DNA of 64,000 bases, taken from assembly GCF_026343955.1 (NCBI RefSeq), contig NZ_JAPKNI010000007.1, forward strand, positions 1 to 64,000. The letters are read 5' to 3'. This stretch comes from Kaistia defluvii (GTDB taxonomy: Bacteria; Pseudomonadota; Alphaproteobacteria; Rhizobiales; Kaistiaceae). Both the position numbers and the translations under genes were made by a program. Under the pieces are notes generated by a model. That model was not told the origin of the DNA, searched no databases, and saw only the letters and a list, made by a program, of their open reading frames with translations. This document shows, piece after piece, positions 9,580 through 12,876 of the stretch; position 1 is the stretch's first letter, and the number at the start of each line of letters is the position of its first letter.

Positions 9580-10941
9580 ATGGGGATTTCAAAAATACAG
9601 ATTCTGGGCCTGTTCGGCTCGGAAGCGCCGCAGGGCAGGGTGATGCTGAAGGCTGCGACCGCTGTCGCCGCCGCCGCGCTCCTCGCGTCCTGCGCCACAG
9701 CCCCGCCCAAGCCGGCCAAGCGCAGCAAGGAATATTTCTCCGAGAAGGAGTATGGCGTCAAAGCCAGTCCGCGCGTTGTCCAGTACGGCCAGCCCGTGCC
9801 GCAGGGCGGTGGCCGCTACATGGTGGGCAAGCCCTATACGGTGAAGGGCCGCGTCTACAAGCCGTTCGAGCACAAGCGCTATACCGCCGTCGGCTACGCC
9901 TCCTGGTATGGCTCGGCTTTTCATGGCCGCTATACCGCGAATGGCGAAGTCTATGACATGGACGGCTTTTCGGCGGCCCACCCGACCATGCCCCTGCCGA
10001 GCTATGCCCGCGTCACCAATCTGCGCAATGGCCGCTCGATCACGGTGCGGGTCAACGATCGCGGCCCCTATGCCAGCGACCGCGTGATGGACCTTTCCTC
10101 GCGCACCGCCGAGGTGCTCGACATGAAGCACCACGGCACCGCCAAGGTGAAGGTCGAATATATCGGTCCGGCCCGGATGGAAGGCCACGATCAGCGCATG
10201 CTGCTGGCCTCCTACAGGGGGCCGGGCAGCAGCATCTCGGGCGATACCATGCTCGCCATGGCGCCGACTCCGGCGCTTCGCGCCCCGAGTGCCAATCCGG
10301 CCGTCGTCATGGCGGCCCTGGCGCCCGTTCCGCGGCCACGGCCCGATTTTTACGAAGGCGGCGACGCTTTCGATCCGGCGCTCGCCTATAACGGGGCACA
10401 GCCGGCCCGCCACGTCGTGGCGCAGGCCGACGCCGCGCCGCAAGGCAGCAATTACGGCGAGCGTTCGCTGGGCTCCTATACGGTCACCAGCCCTGTCGGT
10501 TTCTCCGATGCGGAGGCGATACCCGCCTCGATGTCATCGGACGCGTATGCTCCGCCCGTGCGCCGCTCGGCCCGCTCTTCCTACGCGGCCGATATGCCGG
10601 TCTCGCCGGCGCAGCGCGCCGTCGCCGACCTTGCCGCAGGGGGCGCCGGAAAGGACAGGCTGCAATCGGCGCTCGACGCCGCCGTGGAGCGGGTCGCGTC
10701 CGAACGCGGCGCTGACGTTCCGGTGATCCAACTCGGCGTGTTCTCGAACCTGGCCAATGTCCAGGCCGTGGCCGGCCGCTTCACCGAGCTCGGCCGCGTC
10801 ACGGCAACGCCGATCACGGTCGGCGGCAAGAGCCTGCAATCGATGCGGCTGGTCCTGGCCGATCGCTCGATGCGCGGCGAGGATGCCGTCCGCTCGGTGC
10901 AGGCTGCGGGATTGCCGGGTGCCTATCTGGTCACCCGCTGA
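9580..10941 (+). CDS. rlpA: RlpA-like septal ring lipoprotein with DPBB and SPOR domains
   Basis: About 453 residues. A lipoprotein signal ends in LLASC (lipobox Cys) within the first 40 residues. A double-psi beta-barrel domain follows with GYASWYGSAFHGRYTANGE and SITVRVNDRGPYASDRVMDLS, then a long low-complexity linker and a C-terminal SPOR-like domain (VIQLGVFSNLANVQAVAGRF to the end). RlpA proteins are outer-membrane lipoproteins that bind denuded peptidoglycan at the septum and in some species cleave it. ATG at 9580 is used; a second ATG at 9643 (MLKAATAV) directly before the hydrophobic stretch is a plausible alternative. First gene of the rlpA-dac-tmk-holB-metG block. Confidence 0.88.
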   Translation: MGISKIQILGLFGSEAPQGRVMLKAATAVAAAALLASCATAPPKPAKRSKEYFSEKEYGVKASPRVVQYGQPVPQGGGRYMVGKPYTVKGRVYKPFEHKRYTAVGYASWYGSAFHGRYTANGEVYDMDGFSAAHPTMPLPSYARVTNLRNGRSITVRVNDRGPYASDRVMDLSSRTAEVLDMKHHGTAKVKVEYIGPARMEGHDQRMLLASYRGPGSSISGDTMLAMAPTPALRAPSANPAVVMAALAPVPRPRPDFYEGGDAFDPALAYNGAQPARHVVAQADAAPQGSNYGERSLGSYTVTSPVGFSDAEAIPASMSSDAYAPPVRRSARSSYAADMPVSPAQRAVADLAAGGAGKDRLQSALDAAVERVASERGADVPVIQLGVFSNLANVQAVAGRFTELGRVTATPITVGGKSLQSMRLVLADRSMRGEDAVRSVQAAGLPGAYLVTR

Positions 10942-11038
10942 CCACGATCGTCATTGATCGCGGCGCATCGAGCCTGTTAACCAGAACAGGGCGGCGGCTG
11001 GCCGCTGCCGCTCTGGTTCTCGCGCCCGGTATTCCGTG

Positions 11039-12226
11039 ATGCTTTCCTGCCGGTACCCGCTCCGCCTTTTCGTCTGTGCCGTGCTGATGATCGTCGGCAT
11101 GGCGGTGCAGACATGGGTGGCCTTTGCCGCTCCCTATGAAAGCAAGGCGGCGAGCGCGATGCTGGTCGACGTCGACTCCGGCACGATCCTCTACAGCAAG
11201 GCGGAGGACGTGCCGTTCCAGCCCGCCGCCATGGCCAAGATGATGACGATGGCGGTGGTATTCGACGCCATCCATGAGGGCAAGATCCACCTCGAGGACA
11301 GTTTCCCGGTCAGCGAATATGCCTGGCGCACGGGCGGCGCCCCGTCCGGGAGCGCCACGATGTTCGCCAAGCTGAAATCCTCGATCGCGGTCTCCGATCT
11401 GCTGCGCGGCGCCATCGTTCAGGCGGGCAATGACGCCTGCATCATCCTGGCGGAAGGGATCGCGGGTTCCGAAGGCGCCTTCGTCGAGATGATGAACCGC
11501 AAGGCCAAGGCGCTGGGCCTGACCGGTTCGCATTTCGTCAACGTCTCCGGCCTGCCGGACCCGGCACAGAAGGTCACGGCGCAGGATCTGTACAAGATCG
11601 CCGACTACCTGATCCGCAGTTACCCCGATCTCTATAGTATCTACGCGGAGCCCGACTTCACCTGGAACAACATCTATCAGCGAAACCGCAATCCGCTGCT
11701 GGCCGCCGGCATTGGCGCGGACGGGCTTTCGACGGGTTTCACGAAGGAATCCGGTTATGGCCTGACCGCCTCGGCGGTTCGCGATGGTCATCGCATGATC
11801 GTCGTGATCAGCGGGCTCGAAAGCGACAAGGAGCGGGCAGAGGAGGCGCGCAAGCTGCTTGACTGGGGCAATGCCGCGTTCGAGCGGCTGCGCTTCTTCG
11901 ATCGCGGCGAGGTGGTCGGCGAGGCTCGGGTCTATGGCGGCGCGGCGCGCTCGGTCGGGCTTGCGACGCGCGATCCGCTCGACATCCTGTTGATGCGGGG
12001 CAATCGCGAGCGGATTCGCGCCCGGATCACCTATACGGGCCCCTTGCTTGCACCGGTCGAGCAGGGCAGACAGGTCGGCGTCGTTCGCGTCTGGGTTGGC
12101 GATGCCCAGATTCTGGAGAAGCCCGTCTTCACCACCGCTGCCATCGCCAAGGGTTCAATGGATCAGCGCGCCCTCGACGCCGTCCAGCAACTGCTGATCG
12201 GCTGGCTGCCACAATGGAAGTTATGA
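11039..12226 (+). CDS. DacF/PBP5-like D-alanyl-D-alanine carboxypeptidase homologue with altered active site
   Basis: 395 residues with an N-terminal hydrophobic export signal, the peptidase S11 fold and a C-terminal PBP5-type domain. The family fold is clear (AMLVDVDSGTILYSKA, AWRTGGAPSGSATMFAKLKSSIAVSDLLRG, GLTGSHFVNVSGLPD, NRNPLLA). The three penicillin-binding signatures are all altered: SxxK is AMAK (Ala64), SxN is AGN (Ala129) and KTG is STG (Ser231). The nucleophile is thus missing, so it should not be a normal serine DD-carboxypeptidase; a structural or regulatory peptidoglycan-binding role is possible. The stop codon overlaps the tmk start (ATGA). GTG at 11036 is an alternative start. 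Confidence 0.88.
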   Translation: MLSCRYPLRLFVCAVLMIVGMAVQTWVAFAAPYESKAASAMLVDVDSGTILYSKAEDVPFQPAAMAKMMTMAVVFDAIHEGKIHLEDSFPVSEYAWRTGGAPSGSATMFAKLKSSIAVSDLLRGAIVQAGNDACIILAEGIAGSEGAFVEMMNRKAKALGLTGSHFVNVSGLPDPAQKVTAQDLYKIADYLIRSYPDLYSIYAEPDFTWNNIYQRNRNPLLAAGIGADGLSTGFTKESGYGLTASAVRDGHRMIVVISGLESDKERAEEARKLLDWGNAAFERLRFFDRGEVVGEARVYGGAARSVGLATRDPLDILLMRGNRERIRARITYTGPLLAPVEQGRQVGVVRVWVGDAQILEKPVFTTAAIAKGSMDQRALDAVQQLLIGWLPQWKL

Positions 12227-12876
12227 CGCGCTTGCCGGGTCGGTTCATCACATTCGAAGGCGGGGAGGGATCGGGCAAGTCGACCCAGATCCGCCGCCTG
12301 GCCGAGCGCCTGCGCGAGAGGGGCCAGACGGTCGTCTTGACGCGGGAGCCCGGGGGAACGGAGATGGCGGAGCAGATCCGCTCGTTCATCCTTTCGGGCG
12401 GTGCGGAACATCTGGGCCCCGAGGCGGAGACGATGCTGTTCGCGGCCGCCCGCGCCGACCATGTCGACCGCCTGATCCGGCCCGCGCTGGAGCGCGGGGA
12501 ATGGGTGCTGTGCGACCGGTTCATCGATTCAACCCGCGCCTATCAGGGTTCGGATGGGGTCGATTCCGTCTTGCTCGACAGCCTCGAGAAGATTGCCATC
12601 GGCAGCGTGCGGCCGGACCTGACCCTAGTGCTCGACCTGCCGGTCGAGATCGGCCTGGCGCGCGCCGCACGGCGGCGTAGCGGGGAGGCGGGGCCCGCCG
12701 ACCGGTTCGAGCGCGAGACGGTTGAACGGCACGAGCGGCGACGCCAATTGTTCCTGGCGATCGCGGCGGCCGACCCCGACCGCTGCCTCGTCATCGATGC
12801 CAACCAGACGCAGGACATTGTCGCCGATGCTATCTGGCAGGGCGTTCGCCAGCGCATGATCGAGAGTGTGAACTAG
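12223..12876 (+). CDS. tmk: Thymidylate kinase
   Basis: 217 residues. P-loop FEGGEGSGKST, LTREPGGT, DRFIDSTRAYQG and a lid region rich in Arg (ARAARRRSGEAGPADRFE) are as in bacterial dTMP kinases. It phosphorylates dTMP to dTDP with ATP. ATG at 12223 overlaps the TGA of the preceding gene (ATGA), so translation is coupled. The holB gene follows after 3 bases, the usual tmk-holB pair linking nucleotide supply and replication genes. Confidence 0.96.
   Translation: MTRLPGRFITFEGGEGSGKSTQIRRLAERLRERGQTVVLTREPGGTEMAEQIRSFILSGGAEHLGPEAETMLFAAARADHVDRLIRPALERGEWVLCDRFIDSTRAYQGSDGVDSVLLDSLEKIAIGSVRPDLTLVLDLPVEIGLARAARRRSGEAGPADRFERETVERHERRRQLFLAIAAADPDRCLVIDANQTQDIVADAIWQGVRQRMIESVN

Follow-up and report, generated by a model that had tools for sequence, protein, structure and literature searches.

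The dac-like gene and its neighbours

The window, that is, the whole stretch of 64,000 nucleotides from Kaistia defluvii analysed here, carries a dac-like gene located between rlpA and tmk, all three on the forward strand. The features of this locus are the following:

9643..10941, + strand: rlpA, the upstream neighbour, encoding a DPBB-domain lipoprotein-like product with AAHPTMP and VNDRGP present (start placed by eye)
11039..12226, + strand: dac-like coding sequence for a 395-aa PBP5-type S11 protein, a predicted pseudoenzyme (translation, Pfam, AlphaFold2, Foldseek)
11039..11128, + strand: putative N-terminal signal peptide, cleavage near VAFA at aa 30 (judged by eye)
11132..11812, + strand: Peptidase_S11 domain, aa 32-258 (Pfam PF00768, E 1.2e-68)
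11228..11239, + strand: SxxK motif reading AMAK, aa 64-67, with the nucleophilic Ser64 replaced by Ala and Lys67 retained
11354..11356, + strand: Ala106, replacing a fourth conserved Ser (residue conservation scan)
11423..11431, + strand: SxN motif reading AGN, aa 129-131, with Ser129 replaced by Ala and Asn131 retained
11729..11737, + strand: KTG motif reading STG, aa 231-233, with Lys231 replaced by Ser
11879..12148, + strand: PBP5_C beta domain, aa 281-370 (Pfam PF07943, E 1.9e-16)
12158..12205, + strand: C-terminal amphipathic helix, aa 374-389, a probable membrane anchor (AlphaFold2 helix)
12214..12876, + strand: tmk, whose open reading frame overlaps the dac stop codon

PBP5-type proteins are textbook penicillin-binding enzymes. 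Translation of the dac-like gene revealed an uninterrupted reading frame, and it confirmed, at the positions listed above, the three altered motifs described in an earlier, sequence-only reading of this DNA. The same reading had held that the S11 fold is well preserved, which is borne out because Pfam detects both the Peptidase_S11 and the PBP5_C domains with the E values given. The AlphaFold2 model of the window protein, built from an input of 80 sequences (the window protein and those of the loci), had a mean pLDDT of 92. Its top Foldseek match was the PBP5 of Pseudomonas aeruginosa (4k91; TM 0.91 by target length, 42% identity), also the best relative found by sequence search among solved structures. 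The closest solved relatives were PBP5, PBP6 and PBP6b, and for this reason PBP5-like is a better description than the DacF-like label proposed earlier. None of the NCBIfam models reached its cut-off, the best sub-threshold matches being DacD, an unnamed D-Ala-D-Ala carboxypeptidase (PRK10001) and DacA. At the N-terminus, the AlphaFold2 model contained a helix at aa 9-22, with low confidence across approximately the first 30 residues. The C-terminal stretch RALDA..LLIGW was conserved among Kaistia, with a hydrophobic moment of 0.50 in the window protein.

The dac and tmk genes overlap in an ATGA sequence at 12223-12226, which combines a tmk ATG starting at 12223 with the TGA of dac (12224-12226); an alternative in-frame tmk ATG is found at 12214. 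Judging from this arrangement, translational coupling between dac and tmk is plausible. A promoter and terminator scan of positions 10700-12400 found none, a result of little weight since under one would be expected by chance. Elsewhere in the window, the segment 5211-8127 of the reverse strand resembles, by reading only, split pyridine nucleotide transhydrogenase genes.

Motif state and selection within Kaistia

AMAK-type (A-M-[A/V]-K), AGN and STG motifs were present in all 14 Kaistia genomes, a set that includes K. terrae, K. adipata, K. dalseonensis and K. soli. The gene was read in a single piece in 13 of these genomes and in two pieces in G008, a 720-contig assembly with the only fragmentary copy. 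The same three altered motifs were carried by G027, a genome from another genus (hereafter the sister genus) of the same family. Seven of the 11 non-Kaistia copies read in this family were intact, and 3/28 genomes of the family gave no dac match at E <= 1e-60 (lost, diverged or incomplete). Two loci, L046 (Mesorhizobium sp. BR1-1-16) and L048 (a Bosea MAG), correspond to the same places as those of the Kaistia-genus genomes G012 and G011, and their source records are probably misnamed Kaistia relatives.

An artefact of sequencing, assembly or alignment at the motifs has a negligible probability, since 14 genomes agree at all three and named isolates from culture collections (K. terrae, K. adipata, K. 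soli) are among them. This agreement refutes a sequencing error. It also excludes the situation, considered in the sequence-only reading, of normal orthologues together with an error in this genome: the Kaistia orthologues between rlpA and tmk, the comparison proposed there, share the altered motifs throughout.

The open reading frame was complete in 13/14 Kaistia genomes; four of the complete copies are listed with one TGA each, which by its coordinates is the terminal stop of the gene itself. Among these 13 copies, 171 of the 395 positions were invariant, the altered motif residues among them, with codons that vary synonymously. Median dN/dS values (78 pairs from 13 genomes) were 0.27 for the whole gene, 0.20 for the S11 domain and 0.33 for PBP5_C, the latter thus evolving faster than the S11 domain. 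The intact CrbA-like paralog gave values of 0.38 for the whole ORF and 0.23 for its S11 domain, and tmk a value of 0.175 from six sequences only. The earlier proposal of a maintained pseudoenzyme is supported by the altered motifs shared across the genus, by purifying selection, and by the intact orthologues found in other genera of the family, elsewhere in the order and outside it.

All 395 positions were then scanned for residues that are switched in Kaistia although conserved at >=95% in the outgroup and likewise in intact relatives. Exactly four positions were retrieved, corresponding to S64A, S106A, S129A and K231S; an 80% conservation threshold added one conservative switch, L187I. The outgroup had been chosen without regard to residues 64, 106, 129 and 231, and position 106 played no part in defining intact copies, whereas 64, 129 and 231 did. 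Ser106 was conserved in 98% of the outgroup and 96% of the intact relatives, and was replaced by Ala in 13/13 complete Kaistia copies. The same scan on 12 intact families, each with at least five rows, resulted in no switches in ten and one in two; as intact families are by definition unswitched at the five motif positions, this control covers other positions only.

Motif loss across the order

A dac match at E <= 1e-60 was obtained in 190 of 219 genomes sampled from the order; the other 29 gave no match at this threshold (lost, diverged or incomplete). Loci were read in 131 of the 190 matching genomes, mainly those with better-scoring copies, so that lower-scoring copies are under-sampled. 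Together with loci from the other genus and family sets and three Ancylobacter loci, they made up an aligned set of 151 orthologues, of which 102 were intact and 49 carried a change at one or more of the five catalytic residues. In family f23, 29/31 genomes matched and 25 copies had rlpA or tmk adjoining, 13 of them altered; this survey left out a duplicate, L329, and the copies L337, L340 and L341, which lacked rlpA/tmk neighbours, and it did not extend to the other copies of G260 and G265 or to the second one in G261. Altogether, 62 of 176 copies in the order were altered, in agreement with the earlier guess that some relatives might already lack part of the motifs.

Among the 62 altered copies, 54 had lost the KTG Lys, 44 the SxN Ser and 18 the nucleophile; the Lys of SxxK was missing from seven, and the Asn of SxN also from seven. 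All 18 rows devoid of the nucleophile also lacked the KTG Lys, and in 11 rows the KTG Lys was gone while the SxN Ser remained, the opposite combination being observed in a single row (L210). Because nucleophile-less rows lack the KTG Lys and losses of this residue alone outnumber the reverse, the data suggest a staircase in which the KTG Lys is lost first, then the SxN Ser and finally the nucleophile. A sign test on paired KTG Lys and SxN Ser losses was underpowered, with five independent pairs and a median p of 0.25; SxN went in the same direction in 3.5 pairs on average and never in the opposite one. Over the 42 positions whose conservation reached >=95% in intact rows and in the outgroup, the deviations of altered rows fell chiefly in the active site, mainly at 231, 129, 106, 232 and 64 (position 106 in 39/62 rows); the median deviation was 1.6% over the 37 positions that do not define intact copies.

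Besides Kaistia and the sister genus, the nucleophilic Ser was replaced by Ala in L153 and L201 (f50) and L196 (f24), and by Asn in L041 (f1 g2). Genus g42 of family f34 showed a different pattern, SMAT with SGG or SGT, in which the SxxK Lys and the SxN Asn were lost in 7/7 rows (L105, L108, L109, L114, L119, L128 and L137) and Ser64, Ser129 and KTG (K231) were kept; as far as sequence tells, it is a complementary route to an altered active site. PBP5_C was present in the five altered proteins scanned from other lineages.

Outside the order, all 48 matches were read and 48/48 were intact (29/29 and 19/19); rlpA as well as tmk was found adjoining in 40 of these. Matches at E <= 1e-60 were obtained in 49 of 58 genomes of the class, the window's own included, and nine gave none at this threshold. 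Since all copies read outside the order are intact, the ancestral state was most simply intact, and the rlpA-dac-tmk gene order is old. On trees built without the motif columns, the alteration of any catalytic residue required a minimum of nine changes (in the 151-row and also in the 223-row tree), rising to 12 with no regain allowed. At least three events removed the nucleophile. Counted together with losses of the SxxK Lys, either of which should prevent acylation of the normal kind, they number four. Some loss was present under 11 of 37 family labels, one of which is an NCBI family name that may duplicate a code. These were quick trees, with a support of 29 at the ingroup node, and the combined gene tree placed f21/f41 with Kaistia; because it draws altered lineages together, the loss counts are lower bounds.

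The neighbouring genes were examined in the same 151 loci. An Asp-containing RlpA core (VNDRGP or INDRGP, once AADRGP) was found upstream in 131 of them, corresponding to 45/49 altered and 86/102 intact loci. Within these, a pattern for the His stretch matched with its His 37 times in the 45 altered and 73 times in the 86 intact loci, two intact-locus matches reading AASKTMP. RlpA thus shows no clear parallel decay, as its His and Asp motifs persist beside altered dac copies. The tmk gene was located downstream in 149/151 loci.

Other S11 genes were read in the same genomes: 83 matches from 34 genomes with an altered orthologue, the window's own included, and 14 from other Kaistia, drawn from 26 listed. 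Of these 97 paralogs, 96 were fully intact; the lone exception, L312 (G123), had an altered SxN (aligned S-x-K) and KSG in place of KTG. At least one intact paralog was present in each of the 34 genomes. Since the S11 paralogs stay intact, the decay is specific to the dac gene between rlpA and tmk. The two other S11 genes of the window genome have intact motifs, one encoding an S11 protein with a SPOR domain (CrbA-like, L002) and the other S11 alone; PBP5_C was absent from both in the domain scan. Intact PBP5-like copies for which rlpA/tmk were not found adjoining occur in two-copy genomes (L337 in G265, L340 in G260 and L341 in G258). In G258, L330, the copy linked to rlpA, is altered and the unlinked L341 is intact, a pattern that hints at replacement by a second copy. 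A megablast search of locus L318 against plasmids gave no match.

Among rhizobial model organisms, Sinorhizobium meliloti record CP090106.1 has the gene order rlpA, 'D-alanyl-D-alanine carboxypeptidase', tmk, DNA polymerase III delta', metG and TatD. Its carboxypeptidase gene, LZK74_24590, encodes a protein with S11 and PBP5_C domains and the motifs SLAK, LAN and ATG, those of SxN and KTG being degenerate. Degenerate motifs were also present in Sinorhizobium sp. M103 (LAN/ATG) and Shinella sp. (FAN/VTG). Of the five rows closest to this S. meliloti protein, three were f23 loci and the others Sinorhizobium and Shinella, and f23 is probably Rhizobiaceae. Two other S11 genes read in CP090106.1 were intact; four S11 places were counted in this record, leaving at least one unread. 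The record (L393), labelled as pSymB of S. meliloti Ak57, is 3.7 Mb long, carries tmk, metG and lexA, and is probably the chromosome.

That catalytic residues have been lost repeatedly is suggestive of relaxed selection on catalysis, and, along with the ATGA overlap and the 29 genomes devoid of a match, it would fit a slowly decaying pseudogene or an ORF retained purely for translational coupling to tmk. We consider this very improbable, given the purifying selection at the amino-acid level (dN/dS 0.20-0.27 in Kaistia), the complete ORFs with their exception in a highly fragmented assembly, and the PBP5_C domain of the five altered proteins scanned from other lineages. For Kaistia, purifying selection and complete ORFs largely refute it.

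Proposed role and comparison with known systems

We propose that the gene is the alphaproteobacterial orthologue of the PBP5 DD-carboxypeptidase, kept in Kaistia as a non-catalytic, membrane-anchored part of the peptidoglycan-remodelling machinery next to RlpA, a reading to which we give a probability of roughly 0.6. In the absence of Ser64, the SxN Ser and the KTG Lys, the protein should form no acyl-enzyme, bind no penicillin covalently and trim no pentapeptides. It would be exported, its C-terminal amphipathic helix probably fixing it to the inner membrane on the periplasmic side, and selection would keep it as a partner of the septal or polar remodelling machinery. RlpA and active DD-carboxypeptidases are candidate partners, by analogy with the inactive LytM proteins that regulate hydrolases. 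DD-carboxypeptidase activity would presumably be provided by the CrbA-like S11-SPOR paralog and the third S11 protein; such redundancy could explain the loss of catalysis, but not the retention of the protein.

In the available part of PMC2909392, the S44G mutation of E. coli PBP5 is described as abolishing penicillin binding and carboxypeptidase activity; the mutant protein disperses from midcell, which its authors read as an inability to bind and hydrolyse the substrate, and it fails to complement shape defects. Because S44G loses both binding and activity, the case that the Kaistia protein should be catalytically dead is strong. A dead PBP5 is not automatically useful, since S44G fails in shape complementation and disperses, and any localisation of the Kaistia protein must consequently come from its membrane helix and protein contacts, not from turnover of substrate; placement at the septum would require such contacts. 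We have moderate confidence in the membrane anchoring predicted from the model. The same moderate confidence applies to a role as scaffold or regulator, which fits best because altered lineages keep the S11 fold, PBP5_C and the C-terminal helix. Gene order weakly suggests the partner and the link to RlpA.

The protein might instead be a non-catalytic sensor or decoy whose pocket binds D-Ala-D-Ala stems and shields or reports them. Its predicted fold is intact, and K67, N131, R217, T232, G233 and R266 are kept in the 13 complete Kaistia copies. The KTG Lys contacts the substrate carboxylate. This residue is the one most often altered (54/62), with eleven different replacements across lineages, whereas a kept ligand should impose one chemistry; the dispersal of S44G, as its authors interpret it, points in the same direction. 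Given the frequent loss of this Lys and the diversity of its replacements, we regard a D-Ala-D-Ala sensor as unlikely, and less likely than a scaffold or regulator.

An altered active site performing another reaction appears more unlikely still. Nine polar residues, Ser231 and His251 included, are invariant in Kaistia and the sister genus and rare elsewhere, and among the 48 altered rows outside these two genera the Ser of SxxK is retained in 44 and the Lys in 41. Altered lineages outside Kaistia thus mostly keep SxxK, and some chemistry could be retained in them. The Kaistia protein, however, lacks the S11 nucleophile, and in other lineages the residues that replace 129 and 231 have no chemistry in common.

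Extending the non-catalytic component proposed for Kaistia to Hyphomicrobiales, an ancestral PBP5 may have been converted to such a component several times independently, the non-enzymatic function being the conserved one and catalysis dispensable. We put this forward tentatively, at slightly less than even odds.

Genetic data from rhizobia may bear on this locus. Transposon insertions in S. meliloti smc01188 (pbp5C) lower fitness under NCR247 according to the available part of PMC5539429, and we infer that smc01188 is the gene between rlpA and tmk. In Agrobacterium tumefaciens, insertions in atu1499 (DD-carboxypeptidase) and in rlpA (atu1500) are reported in the portion available of PMC9790009, a Tn-seq study, as synthetically detrimental with loss of YejABEF. 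As the two tags are consecutive, they suggest that atu1499 belongs to the rlpA-tmk locus. Searches of open-licence PMC papers (subscription papers being outside their scope) listed no account that we recognised of this pseudoenzyme or of recurrent motif loss here.

Recurrent active-site loss at one locus in a single order, while fold and neighbours persist and the paralogs stay intact, constitutes a natural experiment separating PBP5 catalysis from any structural role, and makes it testable whether PBP5 has a non-enzymatic job worth keeping. Annotations as 'D-alanyl-D-alanine carboxypeptidase' between rlpA and tmk in this order, S. meliloti included, can misstate activity, a caution that matters for reading Tn-seq, symbiosis and beta-lactam target studies. 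If the repeated conversion in Hyphomicrobiales is true, some 'DD-carboxypeptidase' phenotypes of rhizobia and their relatives, such as the sensitivity of S. meliloti to NCR peptides, would stem from a degenerate or dead enzyme.

Regarding known systems, the window protein has in common with PBP5/DacA-type proteins (P. aeruginosa 4k91; E. coli PBP5, PBP6 and PBP6b) the S11 and PBP5_C domains and, by prediction, a probable export signal and a C-terminal amphipathic helix; unlike them, it lacks the catalytic Ser, the SxN Ser, the KTG Lys and the conserved Ser at 106. CrbA of Caulobacter belongs to the same S11 family, and Kaistia has a CrbA-like paralog with S11 and SPOR domains and intact motifs (L002). 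CrbA has a SPOR domain and, in the part of its description available, a carboxypeptidase role inferred by its authors from muropeptides, whereas the window protein has PBP5_C and no active site. Inactive serine-protease homologues are known in general, the accessible part of one survey covering S12 but not S11 (PMC2605481). Inactive LytM factors such as DipM, described in the available part of PMC10336132 as peptidoglycan-enzyme regulators with a degenerate hydrolase domain, and LdpF/EnvC offer an analogy of working only, their fold and family being unrelated. S. meliloti LZK74_24590 has the same gene order and domains, with SxN and KTG degenerate as here, but unlike the Kaistia protein it keeps SxxK.
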